A stretch of DNA of 64,000 nt from Synechococcus sp. CBW1107 (GTDB lineage: Bacteria > Cyanobacteriota > Cyanobacteriia > PCC-6307 > Cyanobiaceae): positions 186,001 to 250,000 of the forward strand of contig NZ_CP064908.1 in NCBI RefSeq assembly GCF_015841355.1. Direction: 5' to 3'. The position numbers and the translations under genes were made by a program. Below, piece after piece: positions 7,784-56,422 of this stretch (the stretch's first letter is position 1; each line of letters begins with the position of its first letter). The notes beneath the pieces were generated by a model. The model ran no database searches. It was not told the DNA's origin and saw only the letters and a list, made by a program, of their open reading frames with translations.

Positions 7784-8470
7784 ATGACCGATGCCACGCT
7801 CTGGGCTGAGCTGCTGGCCTACGGCAGCGGCATCAGCCTCAGTCCGATCCACATCGGCCTGCTGCTGCTGCTGCTGCTCGGGCCCGATCCCCTGCGCCGG
7901 GGGGGGCTGTTCCTGCTGAGCTGGATCCTCACCATCGCCACGATGATGGCTCTTCTGCTGACTGTGGGTCACGGCCTGCTGCTCACCATGGAGCAGGGCA
8001 GTGACCACCGCACCGGCCTGGATCTGATCGGCGCCGGGGCTCTGCTGGCCCTGGGGATCAGGGATCTGCTGCCCACCAAGGCCGGAGGGGAAGAACCCGC
8101 CGGCTGGATCCGCCAGCTGGATCGCTTCTGCGCCCTGCCCCTGCCGCTGCTGATCGGCGTGAGTGTGGCGATCGAGGTGATCAGCCCCGACGACCTGGTG
8201 CTGATGGCCAAGGGCGCTTCCGCTCTTCTGGCCGCGGGTCTGGGTCGCGGCCAGGAGCTGCTGCTGGCGGGCTGCTTCACCCTGGCGGCCAGCCTGCTGC
8301 TGCTGCTGCCGGTGCTGGGGGTGGCCCTGGGCCGCGAGCGGGTGCTGCCGCTGCTGCAGCGGGGCAAGCAGAGTCTCTACGCCAACGGTGAGCTGGTGAT
8401 GGGCACGATCAGCCTGGCCCTGGCGGTCTATCTGGCCTGGCAGGGCATCGAGGGGCTGAAGCTGGCCTAG
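7784..8470 (+). CDS. GAP-family integral membrane protein
   Basis: A 228-residue protein with about six hydrophobic segments. The first is SPIHIGLLLLLLLGPDPLRRGG, then SWILTIATMMALLLT, a segment around residue 85, and further ones at 130-215. The SPIH... opening and the overall layout resemble the GAP family (Pfam Sap/sulfolipid-1-addressing protein), related to LysE-type exporters. Substrate is unknown. The first ATG with the full first membrane helix was chosen over an upstream GTG. Its end is convergent with, and overlaps, the helicase gene by 4 bases. Confidence 0.75.
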   Translation: MTDATLWAELLAYGSGISLSPIHIGLLLLLLLGPDPLRRGGLFLLSWILTIATMMALLLTVGHGLLLTMEQGSDHRTGLDLIGAGALLALGIRDLLPTKAGGEEPAGWIRQLDRFCALPLPLLIGVSVAIEVISPDDLVLMAKGASALLAAGLGRGQELLLAGCFTLAASLLLLLPVLGVALGRERVLPLLQRGKQSLYANGELVMGTISLALAVYLAWQGIEGLKLA

Positions 8471-9966
8471 CGGCGCGAGGGGGGTCCGGGCTCCTCGGCC
8501 AGGGGCTCCTCCAGAGCCTCCTGCCAGAAGCGGCGATCCGCCGCGCCTCCAGGGCCGCCGGCCAGCCAGACCCCCTGCCGCGCGCGGGTCACGGCCACGT
8601 AAACCAGCTGCCGGCGCAGGCGCAGATCGGAGGGCCAGAAGACATCGGCATCGATGAACACCTCCCCGAACCCGCTCCCCTGGGAGCGGTGCACCGTGAG
8701 CACCGCGGCGGGGCCCAGGGAGGCGAAGGCGTCTCTCACCAGGAAGTATCGGCGCCAGAGGGCGCGGCCCTGATCCTGCCCCGCCTCGCGGGCCTGGCGC
8801 CTCAGGGAGGCGAGCACGGCCTCCAGCTGTGCCCGGGCGGCGGTTCCGACCGGCGGCAGCAGACGCAGGCTCAACGGTGTCTCACCGAAGGCCACCTCCA
8901 CCAGCTGGGTGTCGATCACCGGGGACTCCGCGACGCCGTAATCGGCCAGATCACAGCGCTCCGGGGTCACATCCCGGACCAGCAGCTCCCGGTTCGAGGC
9001 CAGCACCATGTCCGGTTCCTCGCCCCCCTCGGCTCCCTGGCGACAGGCCGGCGCCATCACCGCCATGCGGCTGAGCAGGACTTCACCGGGCAGCACCGGC
9101 AACTGGTCGGCCATGGCGCCGTGGATGGCGCGGCGGGCCAGGGGCACCAGCCGCTCCAGCGAACGGTTGGTGTAGCAGAGGAGCCTGACCTGGTCGGGAT
9201 CGTCGCTGGCGGCGGCCCGGCGCAGGGCTGCCTGGGCGGCCGCCAGCCAGGCGCCGCGCTCCAGCACAGCCACAGTCCCCTGGGGCGTCCGGCGGTGGGG
9301 CCCCACCGGGGGCAGACGGCAGGGAAACTGCTCCTGGCGCAGGGCGGTGGCCAGGCGCAGCACGGGGCCCTGGTGGCGAACCACCTCAGTGAGATCGGCG
9401 CGGCAGGAGCGCTGCAGCGCGAACACCGGGCTGAGCGCTTCCCCCACCGGCGGCAGCTGGGCCGGATCGCCAACGAACACCAGCCGGGTGCCGTAGGGGT
9501 GGGCCCCCTGCAGGCTGAAGCGCAGCAGACTGGGATCCACCATCGAGGCCTCGTCGATCAGCACCAGCCCGAGGTGCTCCAGGGCCAGCGCGGTCTGATC
9601 GGTTTCTTCGCAGACCTCCCGCCCCGCCAAGCGGCGCAGCTTCAGGCGCAGAAGCCGATGCAGGGTGGAGGGGTGCCAGGTGGGGCGCAGACCCGCCAGC
9701 TCCAGAGCGCCCCGCAGAACTCCGACGGCCTTGTGGGTCGGGGCCACCGCGGTCCAGCAGAGCCCCCTGGCTTCGGCCGCGGCCAGGAAGACCATCGACA
9801 GGAACGTCTTGCCTGTGCCGGCATAGCCGCTGAGCACGAAGGGCTCATCCCTGACGGGTCGCGCCAGCCATGCCGTGAAGGTGTCCACCGCACGGCTCTG
9901 GGACGGGGTGAGCTCCGGGGGGCCGCCGGGCGCGCTGTCGCTCAGGCCAGAGGCAGCCAACCCCAC
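8467..9966 (-). CDS. RecD/UvrD-like ATP-dependent DNA helicase
   Basis: A 499-residue superfamily-1 helicase. Walker A is GYAGTGKTFL near residue 47, and Walker B is LVLIDEASMV followed by the motif III region VFVGDPAQLPPVGE. The C-terminal helicase motifs are LTVHRSQGSGFGEVFIDADV and QLVYVAVTRARQGVWLAG. The order and spacing fit the short RecD2/PIF1-like class rather than RecD of RecBCD, and there is no long N-terminal domain. It is the last gene of a folD-crtE-DivPAP-helicase minus-strand run. The stated start overlaps the DivPAP end by 25 bases, so a start a few codons later is possible. Confidence 0.88.
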   Translation of the reverse strand: MGLAASGLSDSAPGGPPELTPSQSRAVDTFTAWLARPVRDEPFVLSGYAGTGKTFLSMVFLAAAEARGLCWTAVAPTHKAVGVLRGALELAGLRPTWHPSTLHRLLRLKLRRLAGREVCEETDQTALALEHLGLVLIDEASMVDPSLLRFSLQGAHPYGTRLVFVGDPAQLPPVGEALSPVFALQRSCRADLTEVVRHQGPVLRLATALRQEQFPCRLPPVGPHRRTPQGTVAVLERGAWLAAAQAALRRAAASDDPDQVRLLCYTNRSLERLVPLARRAIHGAMADQLPVLPGEVLLSRMAVMAPACRQGAEGGEEPDMVLASNRELLVRDVTPERCDLADYGVAESPVIDTQLVEVAFGETPLSLRLLPPVGTAARAQLEAVLASLRRQAREAGQDQGRALWRRYFLVRDAFASLGPAAVLTVHRSQGSGFGEVFIDADVFWPSDLRLRRQLVYVAVTRARQGVWLAGGPGGAADRRFWQEALEEPLAEEPGPPSRR

Positions 9967-10457
9967 CCCTGGGCAATCTGCAGCGGCGATCCAGCCAGGG
10001 CCAGCCCCGTCAGGGCGATCGCCGGGCCGATCAGACTGCCGGCCAGCACCTCCGAGCGGGTGTGGCCGAGGCTCTCCTTGAGCCGGTCAGGCGGCCCGGG
10101 GTTCCAGAGGGAGGCGGGCAGAGCGTTGAGGCGGGCAGCCTGGAGGCCCGCGGCCCGGCGCACCCCGCTGGCGTCGTACATGACGATGAAGGCGATGGTG
10201 CAGGCGAAAGCGAAGAGGGGATCGGCAAATCCCAGTTCCCAGCCGATGCCGGCGCAGGCCCCGGTGATCAGAGCCGAGTGGCTGGAGGGCATGCCCCCGG
10301 TTTCGAACAACACCGCAGGCCGCCAGCGGCCATGCTCCACCAGCTCCACCAGCAACTTGCCGAGCTGGGCCAGACCGCAGGCGATCAGAGCCCAGGCCAG
10401 CACACCGTTGTCGAGCAACTGAATCAGGGGACCATCCGAGAGGGGAGAACCGATCAT
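9942..10457 (-). CDS. divergent PAP2 family membrane phosphatase-like protein
   Basis: A 171-residue membrane protein of the DUF212/DivPAP family. It has an N-terminal helix ([20 protein letters not shown]), the conserved [13 protein letters not shown] motif carrying the PAP2-type SxxH, and the stretch [20 protein letters not shown]. Homologues occur throughout cyanobacteria and plants and are presumed lipid or polyprenyl phosphatases. Its ATG overlaps the crtE stop codon (ATGA), so the two are probably translationally coupled. That context suggests a role with prenyl diphosphates, which is an inference. Confidence 0.88.
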
Positions 10458-45349: not shown

Positions 45350-46320
45350 TGCAGCAGAGGCGTCTGACGGCATCGGACCTTCCCTTCATGATGGAGTCCA
45401 TCGACCGCAACCCCAGCGTGAGCGAGCGCGCGTCCCACCCGGCGGAGCCCTGCGAACCGGCCGACACAGCCGACCCTTCAACCGTGGAGCGTCTACCCAT
45501 TCTGGTGAGCCTGGGCCGGACGCTCGCTGAAGCCCGGGAAGCCCAGGGCATCCCCCTGGCGGTGCTGGCGGAGCAGAACTACCTCTCCGCCGACCGGCTC
45601 GATGCCCTGGAATCTGGCGACCACACGCGGCTGCCCGAGAGGATCTACCTGATTGCCCAGGCCAGACGGGTGGCCACCAGCCTCGGCCTCGACGCCGACC
45701 AGCTGACCGAGCCCCTGCTGGAGATCCACCTGCCTGGAGTCAAACGCACGGCCGCACCTTCCTCGGCTCCCGTGGCGAGGGTGAGCCTGGCGGCTCCCGC
45801 CATGGCTCCCCGGGACCCCAGCAGCACCGCCCGGCTTGAGCCAGCCCGAAAGCCCCGACGGGTCGGAGTGACCTGGCTGCTGGCAGGCGTTGCCGGCGTG
45901 GTGGCCCTCGTGGTGGGCCTGGCCCTGGGGTGGAAGCCAAGCCAGCCCAAGGCCACCACCACGACGCGCCCACCCGCGGGAGCCGAGGCCAGCACAACCA
46001 TCAGCCCAGCCGGCAAGCCCAGCCAGTCCACCAGTGCCGGCAAGCCCAGCCAGGGAAGCCTTCAGCTCAGCAGCCGTGAACCCAGTTGGCTGGAAGTGCG
46101 CAATGGCGAGGACAAGGAGCTGTTCCGGGGTCTGTTCACCGGCACCGGCAATTTTTCTCTGGGGTCAGGACTGAAGGTGCTGGCGGGCCGCCCGGACCTG
46201 ATCACGGTGACCACCGCCTCTGGCGAGTCCGAGACCCTGGGCACGATCGAGCAGATCAGCTGGCAGCAGTTCTCCAGCAGTGGGGAACGTCAGCCCTCCC
46301 AGCGCCGATCCAGCCCCTGA
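45349..46320 (+). CDS. RodZ-like membrane protein with cytoplasmic HTH domain
   Basis: A 323-residue protein. A disordered head of about 45 residues is followed by an HTH_25/XRE-type domain (LAEAREAQGIPLAVLAEQNY, then LEAL-type LDALESGDHTRLPERIYLIA), a basic linker, one membrane helix (VTWLLAGVAGVVALVVGLAL), a Ser/Thr/Pro-rich periplasmic stretch with repeated AGKPSQ units, and a DUF4115-like C-terminal domain (REPSWLEVRNGEDKELFRGL). This is the RodZ architecture, linking cell shape and envelope. The start overlaps the MliC-like stop. Confidence 0.8.
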   Translation: MQQRRLTASDLPFMMESIDRNPSVSERASHPAEPCEPADTADPSTVERLPILVSLGRTLAEAREAQGIPLAVLAEQNYLSADRLDALESGDHTRLPERIYLIAQARRVATSLGLDADQLTEPLLEIHLPGVKRTAAPSSAPVARVSLAAPAMAPRDPSSTARLEPARKPRRVGVTWLLAGVAGVVALVVGLALGWKPSQPKATTTTRPPAGAEASTTISPAGKPSQSTSAGKPSQGSLQLSSREPSWLEVRNGEDKELFRGLFTGTGNFSLGSGLKVLAGRPDLITVTTASGESETLGTIEQISWQQFSSSGERQPSQRRSSP

Positions 46321-46389
46321 AGCCGCCCGGGAGAGAATGCCACGACCCCCTGGAGCAGTCTGATCGAGCGCATCTGCGAACCCGAACTG

Positions 46390-47046
46390 ATGGATGGGGC
46401 CGAGCAGGCCTGGGCCTATGCCGCTGCCGATTTCAATGCCAGCGACCAGGCGATGGTGGACCGCATCGCCCTCTGTTTCGGTTCCCGGCTCGGAGAGCGG
46501 ATCCTCGATCTGGGCTGCGGCCCCGGCAACATCACCTTCCGGCTGGCGAGCCGCTACCCCTCCAGCCGGGTGGTGGGAGTGGATGGTTCAGGCGCGATGC
46601 TGGCCATCGCCCTCGCCCGCCTGGATCAGCGGAGACAGCACCAGCAGGACTCCCCGCCCTGCGGATCCGTGAGCTTCGTGCAGGCGCTGCTCCCCTCGTC
46701 CCGGCTGCAGGGGGGCTACGACGCTGTGGTGAGCAACAGCCTGCTGCATCATCTCCACGATCCCCAGGTTCTCTGGAGCACGGTGCGCCAACTGGCGGCC
46801 CCCGGGGCCGCGATCTACATCAAGGATCTGCGCCGCCCCCCCGATCAGACCACCCTCGAGCGGCTGGTGGCCACCCATGCGGCGGGGGCCCCTCCCGTGC
46901 TCCGGCACGACTACCGCCAGTCCCTCGGGGCTGCCTTCACGGTTCAGGAGGTGCAGGACCAGCTGCGTCAGGCCGGCCTCGGACAGCTGCTGGTGCGGGA
47001 AGCCGAGGATCGCTATCTGGAGGTCATGGGCCGGCACCCGGCATGA
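46390..47046 (+). CDS. class I SAM-dependent methyltransferase
   Basis: A 218-residue Rossmann methyltransferase. Motif I is ILDLGCGPGNITFRLA, the acidic residue after strand 2 is in VVGVDGSGAML, and motif IV is YDAVVSNSLLHHLHDP. Substrate unknown. The frame upstream is open for about 20 codons and reads family-like (ERICEPEL), but its only candidate start there is CTG 46360, so ATG 46390 may clip the true N-terminus by about ten residues. Confidence 0.85.
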   Translation: MDGAEQAWAYAAADFNASDQAMVDRIALCFGSRLGERILDLGCGPGNITFRLASRYPSSRVVGVDGSGAMLAIALARLDQRRQHQQDSPPCGSVSFVQALLPSSRLQGGYDAVVSNSLLHHLHDPQVLWSTVRQLAAPGAAIYIKDLRRPPDQTTLERLVATHAAGAPPVLRHDYRQSLGAAFTVQEVQDQLRQAGLGQLLVREAEDRYLEVMGRHPA

Positions 47047-47139
47047 ACCAGCTGCCGGTGAACCTGCTCGTGGATCCACACGGACAGGGGGGGAGGTCAC
47101 CCTTACTCTTGCCGCACGTTCTGTGCATCACCGAAGCCG

Positions 47140-48009
47140 TTGCTCAGCTCCCTTCACGCGCGTCCGACACGCCAACCCCGGAACGCTCTCCTGCTTGGGC
47201 TCACGGCTCTGCTCCAGGCGCTGATGCTCCCGGCCGCCGTCTTCGCCGAGGAGGAGCAGACAGCCGAGCCCCCCGCACCCTCCCCCTGGAGCGCCACGGT
47301 GGAGCTGTATGGCTTCGCTCCCCTGCGCACCACAGGCAGCACCACCGTCAGGGGGCTGACCGCCGATGTGGACCTCGATCTTGAGCAGGTGCTGCGTCCG
47401 CTGACCATGGCGGCCTACGTCCGAGGCAGCGTCGAGTACAAGCGGCTGGGTCTGCTCACCGACCTGAGCTATGTGTCGGTGCGCGGGGAAGACGCCGTGA
47501 CGTCCCCCGCTGGCAGCAGACGACTGAGCGCGAAGCTGAACAACATCCAGGGCATCTATGACGTGGCCCTTCGCTATCGCTTCGGTGACAGGGAGCAGGC
47601 CGTTGCCAAGGCCGGCAGCTTCAGCGTGATCCCCTATGCGGGCGTGCGATTCGTCGACATGCGCTACGACCTGAGGGCCCAGTTCGACGGACCGCTTCTG
47701 AGCCTCGCCCGCTCCAGGAGCTTCGGTGGCACCGTGACTCAGCCGTTGCTGGGGACGCAGGCCAGTGTGTTCCTCTCGCCGCGCTTGCGCCTGTTCGCCC
47801 GGGGTGATGTCGGCGGCTTCGGCGTCAACAACTCCGACGACTATTCCGCCAATGCCCAGGTTGGTCTGGGTTATGCGGTGGGCAACAACACCCAGCTCAA
47901 TCTCTCCTGGCGCTATCTCCACCTCGGTGGGACCAACGATCAGTCCCCGGAGAATGCCTATGACATCAACCAGAATGGCGTTGAGATGGGGGTGAAATTC
48001 TTTTTCTGA
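47140..48009 (+). CDS. outer-membrane beta-barrel protein of unknown function
   Basis: A 289-residue protein with a signal peptide (LLLGLTALLQALMLPAAVFA), an acidic linker, and alternating-residue strands throughout. Barrel-like segments include TMAAYVRGSVEYKRLGLLTDLSYVSV, IYDVALRYRF, VIPYAGVRFVDMRYDL, NAQVGLGYAV and QLNLSWRYLHLGG. The C-terminal Phe (GVEMGVKFFF) is the classic outer-membrane assembly signal. The start is TTG. I see no S-layer homology domain, so it is not a typical cyanobacterial porin of the SLH-OprB type. Confidence 0.8.
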   Translation: MLSSLHARPTRQPRNALLLGLTALLQALMLPAAVFAEEEQTAEPPAPSPWSATVELYGFAPLRTTGSTTVRGLTADVDLDLEQVLRPLTMAAYVRGSVEYKRLGLLTDLSYVSVRGEDAVTSPAGSRRLSAKLNNIQGIYDVALRYRFGDREQAVAKAGSFSVIPYAGVRFVDMRYDLRAQFDGPLLSLARSRSFGGTVTQPLLGTQASVFLSPRLRLFARGDVGGFGVNNSDDYSANAQVGLGYAVGNNTQLNLSWRYLHLGGTNDQSPENAYDINQNGVEMGVKFFF

Positions 48010-48073
48010 GCTGTACCGAGACAGGCCTTCCAGACGTTGGGCAGCCGATCTGATCCAGGCGATGAGCTGAACC

Positions 48074-48988
48074 ATGGCCTGGTTACCGCTGCTGCTGTAC
48101 GTGGTGCTCAAGGGGCTCAACGCCACCGCCCTGAAAGGGCTGCAGGCCTTCGGGGCGTCTCACCCGATCGGTGGCGAGAACCCGATCAGTTTCTGCAACG
48201 TCTACTTCGTGGCCCAGTTGATCGTGGGCCTCACGGTGCTGTTGCCCGGACATCAGGGGCTGCCGTTGCTCCTGGCCAGGCTGGAGGGGGCCGATCGCCG
48301 TCTGCTGATGCTGGACACGGTGCTCGGTCTGATCCTCGGACCCGTGGCCTTCTACTTCGCCCTGGAAGCCCTTTCGGTGATCAGCCAGACCCTGCTGTTC
48401 GCCCTGGTGCTGCCGCTGTCGGCACTGCTGGCCAGGCGTCTGCTGGGGGAAACGCTGCCACGGGGCTTCTGGTTGAGCTTCGGGCTGATCGTGCTCGGGC
48501 TGCTGCTGCCCCAGCTGGCGATGGCCGGCATGGGTGGACCGATGGATGAACTGCGGGGGGTGATCTGGGCGCTGGTGGGAGTGGTCGCCTTCGCGGGCGC
48601 CGGAGTGAGCGGCCGCGCCATCGCTCGGCGTGGCTGGCCGGCCGCCCTCACGGTTGGGCTCACCACCACGATCTCGGCCCTGGTGTTCGGCGCCCTGGCC
48701 CTGATCCTGTTCGGACCCACCCATTTCCACCTGCTCAATGCCGCCTGGGTGGTGGGGGTGATCGTGATCTATGGACTCGGGCTGTCCCTGGGCAGTGAAC
48801 TGGCCCTGCGCCAGGCCTACCGCCACTGGAGTGTGGCCCAGGTGTCGTTGTGGGGATCGCTGACGATCGTGGTGGCGGTGATCAGTGCAGCCCTGGTGCT
48901 GGGAGAGGCCATCCACCCCATCACGGTCATCGGGCTGCTTCTGGTGCTGCTGGGCACCAGGATGGGGACGGCCGTCGGTGGTGCTTGA
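48074..48988 (+). CDS. EamA/DMT-superfamily transporter
   Basis: A 304-residue permease with about ten hydrophobic helices in two EamA halves. Examples are LLMLDTVLGLILGPVAFYFALEA, SQTLLFALVLPLSALLARRLLGE, VWALVGVVAFAGAGVSGR and VIVIYGLGLSLGSELALRQAY. A conserved ending ALVLGEAIHPITVIGLLLVLLG closes the second half. Substrate unknown. It may start a plus-strand run of overlapping genes through 54,954, although its function is probably separate from them. Confidence 0.85.
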   Translation: MAWLPLLLYVVLKGLNATALKGLQAFGASHPIGGENPISFCNVYFVAQLIVGLTVLLPGHQGLPLLLARLEGADRRLLMLDTVLGLILGPVAFYFALEALSVISQTLLFALVLPLSALLARRLLGETLPRGFWLSFGLIVLGLLLPQLAMAGMGGPMDELRGVIWALVGVVAFAGAGVSGRAIARRGWPAALTVGLTTTISALVFGALALILFGPTHFHLLNAAWVVGVIVIYGLGLSLGSELALRQAYRHWSVAQVSLWGSLTIVVAVISAALVLGEAIHPITVIGLLLVLLGTRMGTAVGGA

Positions 48989-49778
48989 GGTGACCGGACG
49001 CAGCGCAGCAGCATCGCTCGCTCTGGCCCTGGGGGCCCTGCTGACCGTCACGGTCAGCCCGCCGCCGGCTTATTCCCGGCCATCGCCCCTGGAGGGGAGT
49101 GCCTGGCTGCTGGAGTCGATTCCGGGGCAGCGCGCGGTGCTGCCGCCGGCTCCGACCATGCGGCTGGAGAACGGCCGCATCAGCGGCAGCGACGGCTGCA
49201 ACCGCTATGCCGCTTCCGTGCTGATCAGGGGCTCCGTCTTCCGGGTGAGCGCAGAGGGCCCCTCCACCCAGATGGCCTGCCCCGAGAGGCTGATGCGTCA
49301 GGCCGAGTCGTTCAGAGCAGCCCTCACGGCGGCCAGGGGCTACAGCCTCCGCAACGGCCAGCTGGAGCTGATGGCCGCCAATGGCACTCCTGTGGCCCGC
49401 TTCAGGCCCCAGCCCCAGGAGATCGCCGGCGCCCTCTGGATCGTCAGAGGGCTCAACAACGGCAAACAGGCGGTGGTGAGCCCTCTGACGGGGACCACCC
49501 TCAGCCTGGAGCTCAGCGCGCGCGGGCGGCTGGCGGGAACGGCTGGATGCAACCGCTACACCGCAACGGCAGTGCTCGGCCAGGGAACGATTCAGGTGGG
49601 ACCACCGGCGGCGACCCGCAGGATCTGCGTGCGGCCCCGGGGAGTGATGGAGCAGGAGATCCAGTTTCTGAGCGCCCTTGAATCCGCCGGCCACTGGCAG
49701 ATCGAGGCGAACCGGCTGGAGCTGCGGAGGCCCGATGGGGCCCTGGCGGTCACCCTTCGCCGCGCCGACGGCCGATGA
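48978..49778 (+). CDS. secreted protein with two META domains
   Basis: A protein of about 266 residues with a signal peptide (AASLALALGALLTVTVSPPP) and two META domains, each with the SDGCNRY- or TAGCNRY-type motif. They span about residues 35-130 and 150-260. META (HslJ-like) domains are linked to heat or lipid stress in other bacteria, but the molecular role is not settled. Several GTG starts lie within five codons of the DMT stop (48978, 48981, 48990); the first is reported. The end overlaps the aspartic-protease gene (ATGA). Confidence 0.85.
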   Translation: MVLEVTGRSAAASLALALGALLTVTVSPPPAYSRPSPLEGSAWLLESIPGQRAVLPPAPTMRLENGRISGSDGCNRYAASVLIRGSVFRVSAEGPSTQMACPERLMRQAESFRAALTAARGYSLRNGQLELMAANGTPVARFRPQPQEIAGALWIVRGLNNGKQAVVSPLTGTTLSLELSARGRLAGTAGCNRYTATAVLGQGTIQVGPPAATRRICVRPRGVMEQEIQFLSALESAGHWQIEANRLELRRPDGALAVTLRRADGR

Positions 49779-50776
49779 GCAGCAGGGCTGCCGCGCTGGG
49801 GCTGGCTCTGGGGCTGGGGCTCGTTGGCCTGCAACCCGCGGCGGCTTCCCCTGTCTCCATGGCGCCCTGCCCAGCAGCGGCCCTGATCCAGCTGGGTGGG
49901 CCGCCCCTGGCCTCCGGGCGGATCAGCGGCCAGGTGAACGTCCCCCTGGAGCGGGCCAGCGGCGGTGACACCCCCGTGCTCAGCCTCCGGAGTGAAGGCG
50001 GCCCTGTGCGGTTGCTGCTCGACACCGGGGCCTCCACCACCCTGGTGAGCCCCGAGCTGATGCGGCGGCTGAAGCTCGTGGGCCGGCCCGTGGATCCGAA
50101 GTCCTTCACGCTCGCCGGGGCCGGAGAAGGCTGCCCGGACCTGAAGCCCGGGCGGGTGAAGCTGCCCGAACTGGTGCTTGCCGCTGGCGGCGAACGGCTT
50201 CGGCTCAGCGGCGTGGAGGCCCTGGTGCTGCCCGTGGCGGGATTGCCTCCAGGAATCGACGGTGTTCTGGGGGCTCCGCAGCTGCGTCAGCAGCCGCTCT
50301 GGATCGACCCCCACGGGCAGCGCCTGAGCATCGGCGCGCTGGCCCTCGCCGATGCCGGGCGTTTTCGCCGTAGTGCCAGTGCCGGGACCGCCGCCAGCCT
50401 GCCCCTGGTCTGGCGCGAGGGGGTGCCGCTGCTGCCCCTGGCTACACCCCGGGGCACGGAATTCGCCCTGGCCGACACCGGCGCCGAGGGGCTGTTCATC
50501 ACGGCGGGACTGGCGGCGCGGCTGCAGCCGCTGGCACCGGCCAGGGCTCTGAGGCTCGCGGGGTTCTGCGGCGAGCAGTCGGCTCGCCTTCAGCCCCTCT
50601 CGGGCCTGGCTCTGCCAGGGGGCGATCCAGGCCGGCCGGTCGAGGCCATCGTGACGGCCAACCCAATCTTCACAAGCCTGGGGGTGAAAGCGATCGTGGG
50701 GCAGGAGCTGCTGCGCCGCCGGGCCCAGCTCTGGCGGCTCGACGCGGTGCCTGCGACGCTGACCCTCTGGCCCTAG
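49775..50776 (+). CDS. secreted pepsin/retropepsin-like aspartic protease with two DTGA motifs
   Basis: A 333-residue exported protein (signal AAALGLALGLGLVGLQPAAA). Its first active-site motif is VRLLLDTGASTTLVSPEL (Asp83). A second, FALADTGAEGLFI (Asp234), lies 151 residues later, so one chain could supply both catalytic Asp and act as a monomer. A Gly-rich flap-like segment LPPGIDGVLGAPQLRQQ precedes the second lobe. Most bacterial proteins of this type carry one motif and dimerise. Substrate unknown; it is probably periplasmic. It is followed 4 bases later by the zinc-ribbon gene. Confidence 0.83.
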   Translation: MSSRAAALGLALGLGLVGLQPAAASPVSMAPCPAAALIQLGGPPLASGRISGQVNVPLERASGGDTPVLSLRSEGGPVRLLLDTGASTTLVSPELMRRLKLVGRPVDPKSFTLAGAGEGCPDLKPGRVKLPELVLAAGGERLRLSGVEALVLPVAGLPPGIDGVLGAPQLRQQPLWIDPHGQRLSIGALALADAGRFRRSASAGTAASLPLVWREGVPLLPLATPRGTEFALADTGAEGLFITAGLAARLQPLAPARALRLAGFCGEQSARLQPLSGLALPGGDPGRPVEAIVTANPIFTSLGVKAIVGQELLRRRAQLWRLDAVPATLTLWP

Positions 50777-50780
50777 CGCA

Positions 50781-52118
50781 GTGCCGATGCCGCAAGGATT
50801 CCCGTTCAGCGCCCTCCTGACCCGCGCCTGGCGCCGGCTGGGGCGGTCGATCAGGGAACTGCTGCAGCGTTCGGGAACCCTGAACGGCGAGCCCCTGAAC
50901 AAGGCCAGCCTGCTGGTGATCGTGCTGGTCGATCTGGTGTTGCTGGTCAACATCTTCAGTGGCATGGCCGCCATCGCGGAGTGGCCCCTGAGCCCTCAGC
51001 AGGCCTTTCCCTGTCAGGCCGAGTGGAGCCTGTACCGGGACGGCGACAGCGACCGGCGGGAGCGGGACCTGGCGATTCTGCGCCGGGCCATTCCGCGCCG
51101 TGGACCAGGCGAGCCGCAGGCTTCCGCCCCCGATCCGAGCGTTCGCGCCAGGGCCCTCGAGGCCAGCCGTGACCACCTCGGCCGTGTTTCCCCCCTCTGC
51201 CTGGAATTCGCCGGCCATCAGGACCGCATCGCCGCTCAACCGGAGCTGCGCCAGTGGCAGAGGGAGCTGGATGCGGCCGAAACCGACATCACCAGGCTGG
51301 AGCAGCGGAACGCCGCGATCCGCTCCCAGTACGACTCCAGCCTGCTGGAGCGGATCGCCGGTCAGCCTGACTCCCGGTCCATCCAGGAGGTGCCGGCCTC
51401 CCAGGCCCGACGGCAGATCGACGCCAACAACGCCCGCATCGGTGCCCTGCGCGCCGAGGTGGTCACCCTCAACCAGCAGCTGCTGGAGGCCAGGGAGAGT
51501 CAGTCGTTTCTGAGGTTCCTGAACCGCAGCAGCGGCTACGAGGCGATGGAGCGGGCCTTCGCGAGGGCCGAGTTCTGGGCTCCCAGCCAGCGCCTGCTGC
51601 TGCAGGGCCTCTTCCTGATGCCGCTCGTGCTGCTGAGCCTGCTGATCCACCGCCACGCCCTGCGCCGGGGCCATGGCCTGCTGGCGCTGGTGAGCTGGCA
51701 CCTGCTGGTGATCTCCCTGATCCCGCTGCTGCTGAAGCTGGCCGAAGCGGCTCAGGTCGGTGCGCTCTTCGAGCTGCTGCTGGCGGCGGTGCGAGCGATC
51801 GCCGGCAACCTGCGCTTCCTCGTGAACTACCTCTACCTGCTGGCGGTTCCGCTGGTGGGCTTCGCCCTGATCAGGCTGCTGCAGGCCCTGGTGTTCAACC
51901 CGAGGCTGCAGGCTGCGGAGCGGGTTCAGCGCGGCCGCTGTCTGCACTGCGGCCGCAGGCTCCCCAGCGGTGGCCGCCACTGCCCCCATTGCGGCTATGC
52001 CCAGTTCCGCGCCTGCGTCCACTGCCTCGAGCCCACCCACCGACATCTTCCCTATTGCAGCCACTGCGGCGCCGCCCAGCTGGAGGTGGCGCCACGGCCA
52101 CTGAGCCCCCGGCCATGA
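50781..52118 (+). CDS. membrane protein with coiled coil and C-terminal double zinc ribbon
   Basis: A 445-residue protein of unknown function. One helix near the N-terminus (LLVIVLVDLVLLVNIFSG) leads to a Cys-containing exported or cytosolic region, a long coiled coil (about residues 150-245, LRQWQRELDAAETDITRLEQ), then three or four helices at 270-370, and two zinc ribbons at the C-terminus: CLHCGRRLP...CPHCG and CVHCLEPT...CSHCG. The start is GTG. It sits between two protease genes and overlaps the second (ATGA), so it may be a scaffold or regulator of them; that is an inference. Confidence 0.75.
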   Translation: MPMPQGFPFSALLTRAWRRLGRSIRELLQRSGTLNGEPLNKASLLVIVLVDLVLLVNIFSGMAAIAEWPLSPQQAFPCQAEWSLYRDGDSDRRERDLAILRRAIPRRGPGEPQASAPDPSVRARALEASRDHLGRVSPLCLEFAGHQDRIAAQPELRQWQRELDAAETDITRLEQRNAAIRSQYDSSLLERIAGQPDSRSIQEVPASQARRQIDANNARIGALRAEVVTLNQQLLEARESQSFLRFLNRSSGYEAMERAFARAEFWAPSQRLLLQGLFLMPLVLLSLLIHRHALRRGHGLLALVSWHLLVISLIPLLLKLAEAAQVGALFELLLAAVRAIAGNLRFLVNYLYLLAVPLVGFALIRLLQALVFNPRLQAAERVQRGRCLHCGRRLPSGGRHCPHCGYAQFRACVHCLEPTHRHLPYCSHCGAAQLEVAPRPLSPRP

Positions 52119-54583
52119 CATCCACCTCCTCCCAGAGGCCACGGCAGCGGCGTGGCCTCTGGCCCCTGCTCCCCCTCCTGCTGCTCCTGACCCTCGCCGT
52201 GTCGCAGCTGCTGGCTCCCTCCGTGGCCGGCGCCCCCGCCACCGGCAGCAGCTACGCCCTGGCCCAGGCCGCCTCCTTCAACCGACCCAGCCACTACCCA
52301 CTCGACCAGCGCCCCGATCCGCGCCTGTACCAGGCCCACGCCGACTGGATCGGGCGGCTGATCCTGCCCGGCAGCTCCGAGACAGACCGGGACCCCGGCG
52401 ACTGGGTCTGGATCGAGATCGAGCACGCTCCGCCCATGGCCCGGGAGTTGGAGGGGCAGGTGCTGCGCCTGGAGTGGGCTGAGCGGCCGGCCCTGCGGGA
52501 GCTGGTGGAGCGGGTGAGCACCGATGTGCGCTTCGCTCCTGCGGCGCAGGAGCTCGAGGAGCAGGGCAACCTCCTTCCCCGGCGGCTGGATGGTCGCCTG
52601 CGGGTGGGTCCGCTGCAGTCGCTGGCGGGGGCCCGCCCCAACGACGATCTGATCGTGCAGCTCGAGGAGGTGGAGCTGACGCCGGAGACAGATGGCTCCA
52701 CCCGGCTGAGCATCGGCCGACCCCCGCTGCAGATCACCGGCCGTTATGTGGGCCTGGGAGAGATCCTTGGCCCCGTTGGCGAGGAGCCCGATCACTTCCG
52801 GGTGCGCCACTGGAGCCCGAGCCGGGGAGACTTCAGCGGCCCCGAGGACGTGGTGCGTGTCCCCCAGCAGCCGCGTGACCGCTTCGGCCGCTGGATCTCC
52901 ACGCCCCGGGGGTTCAGCTCGAATCCCCTGGGAGCTCAGGGGTGGTACCTCTACGGGGCTCCCGACGCCGAGGGGCTGTTCACGGTTCAGGCCATCAGGC
53001 CAAGGGCCCTGCACCGGCTCCATCCCGATGCCGTGCTGCCCGCGGCCCGTCAGGGAATTCCCTACATCCTGCACGGCAACTGGGCCGACACCCCCCGGCA
53101 ACGGGGCCGGATCCGGCGGGTGCTGCTGGAGCCCGCTGGATCCGGCCCCTCCAGACAGACCACTGGGCCGGTGGGTGAGCGCTGGCGGCCGGGGGATCGG
53201 GCCCTGCTGATCCACAGCTTCGGCGGCATCGGCGGGCCCGGGGGAGAGCGGATCAGCGGCTTCACCGTGACCGGCCACTTCGCCTTCGGGGAAGCGCGGG
53301 TGGTGAGCGATGCCATCACCGGCGAGCCGCGCTTCGATCTGCGTTATCACCAGATCTATGCCAACAACCCGAACGGCATTGTCTCGGGAACCCAGGACTG
53401 GACCGCCTTCAGCGGCGACCTGCAACGGGGCTGGATGGGCTCACGGCCGATCTCCGATGTGCTGATCAAGCTGCAGCCCTTCGACGACCTGACGGTGGAC
53501 GGGCGCCCCCTCTCGCTGCTGCGGGAGCTGGCGATCCAGGCTGAGGTGCTGATGGCCCGCTACCGCAGCGGTGATGGCACCGGAGTCTCCACGGTGACCC
53601 CGTCCACCTCCTGCGTGCAGGATTCCAGCCAGGCCCTCTACATCGCCATCGATCGCCTGCGCCGCCGGGCAGCGGAGGACCCGGGGCTGCGCCGCTGGCT
53701 CCAGCTCCATCCCCAGGACAGCGCCAGCAGGGCCATCCGCCAGCTGGCGCGTCTCTCGTCCTCCCTCGACCAGCTGCTCACCCCCTTCGGCACGGTGCGA
53801 TCCGACTGGCGCCATAACGCATCAGTGGTGGCGGGTGAGACGTTCGTGCGCGGCGAGACGGGGCTCGACGCCCTGATGAGCTGGCGCTCGATGCTGCCCC
53901 GCCGCGCTCACGACGACATGGCGCGGGTGTTCCTGCAGCACGGTGCCAGCCTCTGGTTCCTGCGCAGCAACCAGCTGGCTGGAGGCGACACCACGATCGA
54001 GCCCCTGGCCCCCACTCTGCTGCTGGGTCAGATCCCGATGCTCTCCATCCTGCTGCGGCGTTTCAGCGATGCCCTGTTCGCGCCCCTGGGTCCAGCCGCC
54101 CTGGGCCGCGCTCTGGCGATCCTGGCGATCTACGCGGCGCTGGCCCTGCCGCTGGGCTGGCGGTCGGGCTTTCTCAGCCCCTGGAGGCTGGAGGCGTTCG
54201 GTCCGGCGCTGAGGGCCATTCCAGGCCTGCTGCTGATGCCGGCCCTGGGGGAGGAACTTGTGTTCCGGGTGGCCCTGCTGCCCCATCCGCTCGAGGGGGG
54301 CTCACTGGCCGGCGCCGTGGCCTGGGGAGTCCTCAGCGTCGGTCTGTTCGTGCTGTATCACCCCCTGGCGGCCCGCTGCTGGTACCCGCCTGGGCGTGGG
54401 CTGTTCCGCGATGGTCGCTTCCTGATGCAGTGCGCCCTGCTGGGAGCAGCCTGTGTGCTGGCCTACGGGGCCACCGGCTCCGTCTGGCCGCCGGTGCTGC
54501 TGCATGGGCTGGCTGTAACGCTTTGGCTCTGGGGCCTGGGGGGCAGGGCGAGGATGCAGGACCTGCCGCAGCCGATCCCGTGA
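52115..54583 (+). CDS. large CPBP-family (CAAX-like) membrane metalloprotease
   Basis: An 822-residue protein. A signal-anchor helix (LWPLLPLLLLLTLAVSQLL) is followed by an extracytoplasmic region of about 580 residues with no domain I recognise, and then a C-terminal intramembrane protease domain with several helices. The three CPBP motifs are intact: E713-E714-x3-R718 (EELVFR), F745-x3-H749 and H797 in LLHGLAVTLW. CPBP enzymes process prenylated proteins, bacteriocins or regulatory peptides. It overlaps both neighbours by 4 bases. Confidence 0.85.
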   Translation: MTSTSSQRPRQRRGLWPLLPLLLLLTLAVSQLLAPSVAGAPATGSSYALAQAASFNRPSHYPLDQRPDPRLYQAHADWIGRLILPGSSETDRDPGDWVWIEIEHAPPMARELEGQVLRLEWAERPALRELVERVSTDVRFAPAAQELEEQGNLLPRRLDGRLRVGPLQSLAGARPNDDLIVQLEEVELTPETDGSTRLSIGRPPLQITGRYVGLGEILGPVGEEPDHFRVRHWSPSRGDFSGPEDVVRVPQQPRDRFGRWISTPRGFSSNPLGAQGWYLYGAPDAEGLFTVQAIRPRALHRLHPDAVLPAARQGIPYILHGNWADTPRQRGRIRRVLLEPAGSGPSRQTTGPVGERWRPGDRALLIHSFGGIGGPGGERISGFTVTGHFAFGEARVVSDAITGEPRFDLRYHQIYANNPNGIVSGTQDWTAFSGDLQRGWMGSRPISDVLIKLQPFDDLTVDGRPLSLLRELAIQAEVLMARYRSGDGTGVSTVTPSTSCVQDSSQALYIAIDRLRRRAAEDPGLRRWLQLHPQDSASRAIRQLARLSSSLDQLLTPFGTVRSDWRHNASVVAGETFVRGETGLDALMSWRSMLPRRAHDDMARVFLQHGASLWFLRSNQLAGGDTTIEPLAPTLLLGQIPMLSILLRRFSDALFAPLGPAALGRALAILAIYAALALPLGWRSGFLSPWRLEAFGPALRAIPGLLLMPALGEELVFRVALLPHPLEGGSLAGAVAWGVLSVGLFVLYHPLAARCWYPPGRGLFRDGRFLMQCALLGAACVLAYGATGSVWPPVLLHGLAVTLWLWGLGGRARMQDLPQPIP

Positions 54584-54954
54584 CCCTTGAGCGCTTCAAG
54601 AAGGCCCTGACGGCCCTGATGGAGAAGGCACCGGAGGATCCACTGGAGCGGGATGAGTTCTTCGAGGTCACGCCCCTGCCTGCCGAGGACGGACCGTTCG
54701 AGGTGGTGGTGGTGGATGAGGAGGCCGCGATCTTTGCGGTCCTCTACCTCGATCAGCTCTTTGCCGATGAGGAGAGCGAAGGGCAGCAGGAGGTGGAAGC
54801 CCTGGTGCCCGCCTACCTGAAGTCGCACTTTCAGCTGGAGGAGGGGGAATGGGCCTCGACGGCCCCGTTCGACCTCGGCTGGCGCAGCCGCGACTTTCTC
54901 TGGTTCCAGGAATTCACGGTGCCGGGGCTGACCCCGGCCTGCCGCTACGACTGA
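54580..54954 (+). CDS. small acidic conserved hypothetical protein
   Basis: A 124-residue soluble protein. MTLERFKKALTALMEKAPED is followed by strands (FEVVVVDEEAAIFAVLYLDQL), an acidic loop and WRSRDFLWFQEFTVPGLTP. I do not recognise the family. It starts at GTG overlapping the protease stop and may be its cytosolic partner or regulator. Confidence 0.7.
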   Translation: MTLERFKKALTALMEKAPEDPLERDEFFEVTPLPAEDGPFEVVVVDEEAAIFAVLYLDQLFADEESEGQQEVEALVPAYLKSHFQLEEGEWASTAPFDLGWRSRDFLWFQEFTVPGLTPACRYD

Positions 54955-54990
54955 GCCGGGGCCGTGCTGAGCACCGGCTGGCGCCCACCA

Positions 54991-55794
54991 TCAGCGGCGG
55001 CCGTTGACGATCACCGGTGTGCCGCTGCCCACCGTGCCCGGCAGGGCCGGAACCACGGAGGTCTGCCCGTCCCATTTGTCGAGGAAGAGCTTGAAGAGCA
55101 CCTGATCATCCAGGCTGGAGTTGAGGATCTGGTAGCGCTTGGCTTCCTGCTCGGCGATCTTCACTTCGGTCTGGGCGCGCAGGAGCCGTTGATCGGCGAT
55201 CTGCTTCTGCTCGATCGCCGAACGGTATTCCTCGGCGATCTGCAATCCGGTGAGGTCGAGTCCCTGGACTTTCACGTAGTCGAACTTGCTCAGTTCCTGA
55301 GCCACCATGTCCTGAACGAGCTCGGAGATGCTGTTCCACTCGGTAGCGATGGTCACCAGCTCGTACTGGGAGAACACAGATTTGAGCGCTTTCAGCAGCG
55401 ATGGCTGAATGATCCGAGGATAGATCTGCTGGTTTTCGGTGGCGATTGTCTCGAAGATCCGGCCTGCTTCCTGCGGCTTGATCGAGTACTTCACCGTGGC
55501 GGTGGCCTCGATCACCTGCAGATCCTTGGTGAGTGTGGAGAACTGCTCAGGCCGCACCTGGGTGCGCACATCGAACAAGGAGGTGGCCTGAATCAGCGGC
55601 ACCTTGATGTTGGGCCCCGGGCTGCGCTGGCCCCCGGTCACCCGCCCCAGGGTGGTGACCACGGCCACGTTGCCGGCCGGGACGATGAAGATGGTCTGGG
55701 TGAGCAGGATCACCAGCGCCACGGCCACGGCCGCGATCAGCTGAAAGCCAGCCCCTGGTCCATCACCACCGGCCGGTCGCATCGAGCTCTGCAT
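54991..55794 (-). CDS. prohibitin/SPFH-band 7 membrane protein
   Basis: A 267-residue prohibitin homologue. After a membrane anchor (FQLIAAVAVALVILLTQTIFIVPAG) come the SPFH core (VAVVTTLGRV, GPNIKVPLIQATSLFDVRTQ, TKDLQVIEATATVKYSI) and a coiled C-terminal part (AEEYRSAIEQKQIADQRLL). Cyanobacterial prohibitins form large ring assemblies near thylakoids. MQSSMRPAGG was chosen as start; a longer in-frame ATG at 55893 would overlap the divergent cupin gene. Confidence 0.93.
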   Translation of the reverse strand: MQSSMRPAGGDGPGAGFQLIAAVAVALVILLTQTIFIVPAGNVAVVTTLGRVTGGQRSPGPNIKVPLIQATSLFDVRTQVRPEQFSTLTKDLQVIEATATVKYSIKPQEAGRIFETIATENQQIYPRIIQPSLLKALKSVFSQYELVTIATEWNSISELVQDMVAQELSKFDYVKVQGLDLTGLQIAEEYRSAIEQKQIADQRLLRAQTEVKIAEQEAKRYQILNSSLDDQVLFKLFLDKWDGQTSVVPALPGTVGSGTPVIVNGRR

Positions 55795-55891
55795 CAAGAG
55801 GTGGGGTCGGAGGGCCCAAACCCTAGGGCCATGGCCTCGAGAGCTGCGCAGCGGCAGCACCGACCTAGGTTGAGTCACATCCGAAAATTCC

Positions 55892-56422
55892 ATGCAACCC
55901 CTGGATCTGATCGATCACCCCGAAGGAGGCCGATTCCGAGAGGTGTTCCGATCAACCACGCGTGTGGGCTCCACCACGACAACAGATCGCGTCGCGCTCA
56001 CCCATATTTATTTCGAACTGCGGGAAGGTGAACGCAGCCTGTTTCATCAGGTGGCCGCCGATGAAGTCTGGAATCTCTACCGGGGCACGGGCCTGAATCT
56101 CTACAGCTGGGATGGCACAAGCCACGGCCCCAGTTGCATCACGCTGTCGGCTGAAGCCAACAGCTTCTGCCATGTGATCCCAGCCGGACACTGGCAGGCG
56201 GCGGAACCGATCAGCGAGGCGGTCCTGGTGGGCTGCAGCGTGGCGCCAGGCTTCGAATTCGAAGATTTCCGGCTGCTTCAGCCCGACTCACCCCAAGCCC
56301 TGGCCCTGGTGGGCTGCGATCCGGCCCTGGCCCGGTTTCTTCCCCGTGGCGAGGGGACTGATGGTCGCCAGCCCAAGGAGCCTCTCGAGAGGACAGCCTC
56401 ATCACAGGCCGAAGAGCCGTAG
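55892..56422 (+). CDS. cupin domain protein (DUF985)
   Basis: A 176-residue protein whose first 140 residues form a DUF985 cupin. HPEGGRFREVFRS, THIYFELREGERSLFHQVAADEVWNLYRG and the second motif FCHVIPAGHWQAAEPI give the beta-barrel and probable metal-binding His and Glu. Members are small-molecule-binding or sugar-epimerase-like enzymes of unclear substrate. The tail after residue 150 is disordered. It is divergent from the prohibitin gene. Confidence 0.87.
   Translation: MQPLDLIDHPEGGRFREVFRSTTRVGSTTTTDRVALTHIYFELREGERSLFHQVAADEVWNLYRGTGLNLYSWDGTSHGPSCITLSAEANSFCHVIPAGHWQAAEPISEAVLVGCSVAPGFEFEDFRLLQPDSPQALALVGCDPALARFLPRGEGTDGRQPKEPLERTASSQAEEP

Follow-up and report, generated by a model that had tools for sequence, protein, structure and literature searches.

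Most of the 822-residue protein that had been described as a CPBP protease is in fact a separate unnamed domain, here termed X, which the preliminary description of this locus overlooked. The domain is fused to a CPBP-fold membrane domain (X-CPBP), and the gene for a retropepsin-like aspartic protease (ASP) lies beside X or CPBP genes in several genera. The five-gene cluster as put forward is no new system. We tentatively favor, with somewhat less than even confidence, an envelope-proteolysis operon with ASP and X-CPBP as its conserved core, in which X would likely act as a Cys-His(-Asp/Gln) hydrolase outside the membrane and the other three proteins would tune the unit. The window, as we call the whole analyzed stretch of 64,000 nucleotides, belongs to the genome (G000) of a small cyanobacterium, 3.2 Mb in a single contig.

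All five genes lie where the preliminary description had placed them, on the forward strand and with the contents it claimed: a double-META protein (META), ASP, a zinc-ribbon membrane protein (ZRM), X-CPBP and a small acidic protein (SMALL; Table 1). Its observation that most of them share 4-base overlaps holds for three of the four junctions, which overlap by exactly 4 bases (ATGA at 49775–49778 and 52115–52118, GTGA at 54580–54583), but not for the ASP–ZRM junction, a gap of 4 or 10 bases depending on whether ZRM starts at the alternative GTG at 50781 or at the start given in Table 1. The EamA-type transporter gene upstream overlaps the META start by up to 11 bases and is present in six of nine genus members (partial in L131), this genus sample comprising the window and eight named loci (L128–L135). 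No sigma-70-like site was found in 46200–56000, against 0.3 expected by chance, a result that says little. Among the best 80 of 221 relatives, the closest named loci belong to Synechococcus and Cyanobium strains, e.g. WH 5701, CS-1329 and 1G10.

Table 1 Features of the locus, in window coordinates.
Feature	Coordinates	Strand	Remarks
EamA-type transporter gene	48074..48988	+	PF00892; upstream of META
META, 266 aa	48978..49778	+	Likely signal peptide and two META domains; PF03724
ASP, retropepsin-like aspartic protease, 333 aa	49775..50776	+	PF13650
First DTGA motif of ASP (D83)	50021..50032	+	Alignment of 11
Second DTGA motif of ASP (D234)	50474..50485	+	Alignment of 11
ZRM, 443-aa membrane protein with putative double zinc ribbon at its C terminus	50787..52118	+	DZR below cut-off
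Zinc-ribbon cysteines of ZRM, C385–C427	51939..52067	+	Alignment of 7 sequences
X-CPBP fusion, 822 aa	52115..54583	+	N-terminal signal/anchor helix, domain X, CPBP (Rce1-like) membrane domain
Domain X, ~590 residues (about residues 40–640)	52232..54034	+	Common to X-CPBP, ABH-X and X-only proteins (120 rows)
Invariant H388 of X	53276..53278	+	120/120; first residue of predicted strand
Invariant C500 of X	53612..53614	+	120/120; second residue of predicted helix; in C-x-Q-D
CPBP membrane domain, residues 641–822	54035..54580	+	Pfam Rce1-like 702–800; fold match SpdC
CPBP motif 1, E713-E714-x-x-F-R718	54251..54268	+	Alignment A4
SMALL, acidic protein, 124 aa, GTG start	54580..54954	+	Without family
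SPFH/Band 7 gene	54991..55893	-	PF01145; convergent with SMALL

The identity of META was confirmed by two META stretches matching PF03724 at E 3.3e-45, with 153 bits where the cut-off is 24. For ZRM, the eight CxxC cysteines are kept in all seven aligned sequences, window included, but the best Pfam match, DZR (PF12773), falls just short of its cut-off (25.4 against 27.3 bits). SMALL is present as described and has no match in Pfam or NCBIfam. Together with the convergent SPFH gene (window 54580–55893), it retains its neighborhood outside the genus in L136, L137, L141, L144, L158 and L088; in the genome G069 both genes lie more than 900 kb away from X-CPBP.

The preliminary description saw in the five genes an envelope-proteolysis or stress-response module scaffolded by the zinc-ribbon protein. 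Matches in 120 genomes of the window's order numbered 20 for the CPBP protein, 14 for ASP, 16 for META (nine near full length), 11 for SMALL and four for ZRM; X-CPBP was full length in 19 genomes, the twentieth (G112) matching in separate pieces. All five genes co-occurred in 4/120 genomes, all from the window's own genus, and the five-gene block was seen in the neighborhoods of that genus only, so that a five-gene system is rejected. Within the genus, META, ASP, X-CPBP and SMALL stand together in all nine members (X being interrupted in L134), with META adjoining ASP throughout. ZRM occurs in seven of the nine, as locus comparison and a whole-genome search of the genus agree, the latter finding it nowhere in the two genomes that lack it at the locus; outside the genus it was not found among the 120 genomes of the order. 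It therefore cannot be a required scaffold, and in L128 and L129 a spacer of 10 bases separates ASP from the X-CPBP gene downstream. Five genomes of genus g8 carry the double-META gene at a different site, mutually syntenic among themselves, and four of g9 have SMALL without an X-CPBP match. Co-conservation thus fails for three genes (ZRM, SMALL and META being dispersed or missing), which are best read as genus-level additions, but holds for ASP and the CPBP protein, neighbors in several genera though not in 46 loci from other cyanobacteria. Envelope proteolysis remains the most sensible theme for the ASP/X-CPBP pair, not for a conserved five-gene set.

The assignment of ASP as a two-motif aspartic protease stands, with 52.6 bits to Asp_protease_2 (PF13650) against a cut-off of 24.3 and a DTGA motif in each half. 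All 11 sequences of an alignment that includes the window's keep both motif aspartates (D83 and D234), the first motif being DSGA in one of them. Its hydrophobic amino terminus was read as a signal peptide. Of the 120 genomes of the order, 14 carry ASP, and in ten of these, spanning five genera (g1, g16, g17, g8, g15), its neighbor is an X or a CPBP gene: four genomes of the window's genus and G059, G119, G063, G069, G112 and G054. An antisense oxidoreductase gene intervenes in G119, ASP is cut short in G069, its neighbor in G112 is a CPBP domain without X, and in G054 it is the pair of c24 and an alpha/beta-hydrolase-X (ABH-X) gene, the other architecture of X. The remaining four genomes (G079, G091, G107, G086) have ASP away from X and CPBP genes, G086 yielding no X-CPBP match. 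A six-frame profile search of the named loci (the best 80 of 221 relatives, 34 of them picocyanobacterial by title and tree) detected ASP in 12, all picocyanobacterial (L128–L137, L148, L150), within two genes of X or, in L134, of the nearer X piece; it detected none in the 46 non-picocyanobacterial X-CPBP loci, seven of which are under 8 kb.

Immediately upstream of X-CPBP, nine loci carry a rhomboid-cluster gene, and three members tested match PF01694 (E 6.2e-15, 1.7e-15 and 3.9e-18). L077 (7021–9183) and L148 (3933–8010) each have rhomboid, ASP and CPBP genes in succession on the same strand, with the rhomboid gene directly before ASP. The three genes of L148, of which the last encodes X-CPBP, overlap by a few bases; L077 has 43 bases between rhomboid and ASP, a four-base overlap of ASP with CPBP, and a CPBP domain without X.

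These neighborhoods bear on whether the genes share a function at all, since an ordinary run of genes with short intergenic distances in a compact cyanobacterial genome, each working alone, would fit the independent gain and loss of ZRM, META and SMALL, the company that SMALL keeps in G069 (the SPFH gene, not CPBP), the lineage-dependent neighbors of X-CPBP (rhomboid and PPK2 versus an SbcC-like gene, named by eye) and the lack of ASP in 46 of 46 non-picocyanobacterial loci. Such a run fits less well with ASP having X or CPBP as its neighbor in ten of the 14 genomes, from five genera and once with ABH-X, which is above the usual drift, although the counts ignore kinship and hence describe an association, not independent events. 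We regard the absence of any joint function as somewhat unlikely and retain ASP and X-CPBP as the preferred core. An anti-phage defense system was also considered and rejected, as scanning seven proteins with PADLOC gave no match beyond two at E 0.034 and 0.042.

The boundaries of X (residues ~40–640) emerged when the X-CPBP proteins were aligned with another protein set, of ~950 residues each, and the domain occurs in three architectures: X-CPBP, ABH-X, whose hydrolase part was recognized by its GxSGG motif, and X alone. Longer ABH-X proteins carry an additional N-terminal membrane part that elsewhere is the separate gene c24, for which the best Pfam match, Yip1, is not significant (E 0.27). 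Across an alignment of 120 domains (94 X-CPBP, 18 ABH-X and 8 X-only; 111 different sequences, some genomes being represented twice), 33 positions never vary, including H388, Q413, R444, R482, R484, D487, C500, Q502 and D503. In a sample of 339 cyanobacterial genomes (129 genera), 43 genomes from 29 genera carry X. A tree of 111 rows, calculated by a quick method that leaves 31 of 108 inner branches open, places 85 X-CPBP rows together with two label changes, compared to 23.6 in shuffles. The only X-only rows among them are L140 and L142, and the ABH-X rows and six further X-only rows fall on the other side. This grouping of the X-CPBP proteins points to an old fusion. The best 80 of 221 relatives from the genome contigs scanned are all cyanobacterial, so that a restriction to this phylum is likely. 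No copies were found among viral contigs, and the two plasmid records are both from cyanobacteria.

Several loci show the two parts of the fusion in other arrangements. L140 (10001–11848) and L142 (9854–11809) encode X alone, with 615 and 651 residues, within the X-CPBP clade, and the next gene, a 123-residue reading frame, contains no CPBP part; L077 conversely has CPBP alone, so that X and CPBP are separable. In L214, an ABH-X gene (1292 aa) is followed in tandem on the same strand by an X-CPBP gene (895 aa), which makes the two main architectures of X direct neighbors. The X-CPBP gene of Synechococcus sp. WH 5701 is interrupted within X by an insertion of ~1.7 kb (L134, about 8308–10000); this insert holds two transposase-like reading frames on the opposite strand, as judged by eye, and inverted repeats of at least 12 bases were not found. 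The intact gene hence seems dispensable in that strain.

Searches of Pfam, NCBIfam, PADLOC and the solved structures gave no match to X. A Pfam scan of 61 members returned scattered chance-level matches only, the best at E 0.017 in a single member, and one sequence search against the PDB returned nothing, another only two matches lacking credibility (E 1.5 and 1.9). The AlphaFold model of full-length X-CPBP was confident (mean pLDDT 88.7, pTM 0.87), with C500 at the second position of a helix and H388 opening a strand. Residues 318–640 modeled alone gave a poorer pLDDT of 75.6, and neither the full model nor this part yielded a credible fold match for X with Foldseek or VIA-align; OB-like folds listed within residues 40–301 reached Z scores of about 4–5 only. 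The order of a strand histidine followed by a helix cysteine suggested a permuted papain-like fold. This identity found no support, as there was neither a credible fold match nor a sequence-profile match: a local HH alignment with peptidase C92 gave a probability of 0.6 %, no better than chance (the 12 C92 rows used include at least two, L228 and L234, that look misread), and the papain-type falcipain-2 appeared among the folds listed at E of at least 1.6 and a probability of at most 0.08. The invariance of its residues and the predicted placement of cysteine and histidine make a hydrolase with a Cys-His(-Asp/Gln) center the most likely identity of X.

The carboxy-terminal membrane domain, also recovered by a family search of the genome, belongs to the CPBP fold by sequence, with an Rce1-like match of 40.4 bits (PF02517; cut-off 22.4), but motif 3, HxxxN/D, is not intact, and the domain cannot be claimed as a canonical CPBP protease. 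In the 74 aligned X-CPBP sequences (A4), E713, E714 and R718 of the EExxxR motif are present in all rows. The FxxxH motif (F745 and H749 in the window) has F or Y at 745 in all rows and H749 in 69, being lost from five, and H797 is found in 73 rows, the last one having a gap. Position 801 is V in 60 rows, A in five, L in three and R, E, Q, T, I or a gap in one each, without a single N or D; another protein of the window genome, L001, reads HALWN at its CPBP motif 3. Given the missing Asn/Asp and the loss of H749 in 5/74 rows, the membrane domain may lack protease activity. MmRce1 uses E140, E141, H173, H227 and N231, with equivalents in myxosortase (PMC11980579, PMC10811503). The same papers describe myxosortase MrtX and the didemnin enzyme DidK as bacterial CPBP proteins acting in sorting and maturation. 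A unit that matures or sorts a single class of surface proteins or exported peptides, using CPBP in the manner of a myxosortase or of prodrug maturation, would have these precedents; both proteins possess the Asn of HxxxN, which the X-CPBP proteins do not, and we consider such a role very unlikely here.

A further reading has a non-catalytic membrane domain. SagB is a cell-wall enzyme that partners SpdC in a peptidoglycan release complex. The closest solved structure listed for the CPBP part (residues 640–817) was SpdC of the SagB–SpdC complex (6u0o_A; VIA-align Z 8.5, rmsd 4.1, 158 residues aligned), and X might be an enzyme or binder of peptidoglycan, glycan or lipid that is anchored and placed, as in that complex, by a non-catalytic CPBP-fold domain, ASP being a separate envelope enzyme. 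The unconserved HxxxN/D motif fits this arrangement, as does the attachment of X to the quite different module of ABH-X, which makes the membrane part look exchangeable. A mere anchor would, however, hardly need E713, E714 and R718 in 74/74 and H797 in 73/74 rows, a Z score of 8.5 is not decisive for a helical bundle, and no peptidoglycan-enzyme family matched X in the Pfam scans. We judge the anchored binder or enzyme to be rather unlikely, and the envelope-proteolysis reading remains the preferred one.

The loop charges place X outside the membrane. In the 74 X-CPBP sequences, the mean number of K/R residues is 2.85 before and 0.80 after the N-terminal helix, and alternates along the membrane loops (1.04, 0.04, 3.07, 0, 2.88), a pattern indicating an inside amino terminus; the mean helix hydropathy over these sequences is depressed by rows with short N-termini. 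In X-only and ABH-X proteins, positive residues were seen by eye after the N-terminal helices, and X may therefore lie in the cytoplasm in these proteins, which would mean either that X has more than one substrate or that the topology given here for X-CPBP is wrong.

In the envelope-proteolysis reading, ASP would be exported and X-CPBP would expose the large soluble X on the outer face, its CPBP domain lying within the membrane. At the surface, X would bind or cleave a protein or peptide of the envelope; the part of that substrate embedded in the membrane would be cut by the CPBP domain, or simply be held and presented by it, and ASP would then trim the released product. META, ZRM and SMALL, added within one genus, would tune this unit and not define it. 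Gene order, family matches, the fusion, the invariant residues, the neighborhood of ASP and the loop charges were observed directly; catalysis by X, continued cleavage by CPBP, export of ASP, a substrate common to ASP and X-CPBP and the order of steps are inferred.

A bolder version, which we hold to be quite unlikely, takes X for an undescribed enzyme fold with a Cys-His-Asp center and X-CPBP for a two-engine enzyme relaying with secreted ASP and, in some strains, with the rhomboid. If true, an outer-face thiol hydrolase would share one protein with an intramembrane site of the glutamic type, and up to four catalytic mechanisms would act on one cyanobacterial envelope substrate pathway. Uncharacterized conserved domains are, in our impression, common in cyanobacteria. 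Nevertheless, a domain found in 43 of 339 sampled genomes in three architectures, with no name in the libraries searched and no solved relative found, and its old fusion to CPBP merit specialist attention. If X is an enzyme, the fixed residues H388, C500, D503, D487 and R482 allow direct point-mutation tests, and its pairing with ASP in picocyanobacteria offers a route to the substrate. A literature search, beyond whose reach most subscription papers lay, retrieved no paper on domain X or the X-CPBP fusion. An apicoplast CaaX-like protease of cyanobacterial origin has reportedly been studied.

Comparison with known systems shows both shared and deviating features. META has the domain of HslJ (Pfam E 3.3e-45) but in two stretches, and reaches only 28.6 bits with the HslJ model PRK10449, far below its cut-off of 168. 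ASP passes the Pfam cut-off of the retropepsin-like bacterial aspartic proteases (Asp_protease_2) and has a D[ST]GA motif in both halves, yet joins the two halves in one chain and repeatedly adjoins X or CPBP genes. Permuted papain-like enzymes have a histidine on a strand preceding a cysteine at the start of a helix. X resembles those of the peptidase C92 and LRAT type in this order, and differs from them in giving neither a profile match, which is a weak test, nor a fold match. With the CPBP/Rce1-like intramembrane glutamic proteases MmRce1, MrtX and DidK, X-CPBP has in common EExxxR, mostly FxxxH and a Pfam score above cut-off, whereas it lacks the Asn/Asp of HxxxN and carries ~590 residues outside the membrane. 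The SagB–SpdC complex (6u0o) provides the best-scoring fold for the membrane part and, likewise, a CPBP-fold protein paired with a cell-wall enzyme; SagB, however, is a separate protein, whereas X is covalently joined and of an unnamed type.
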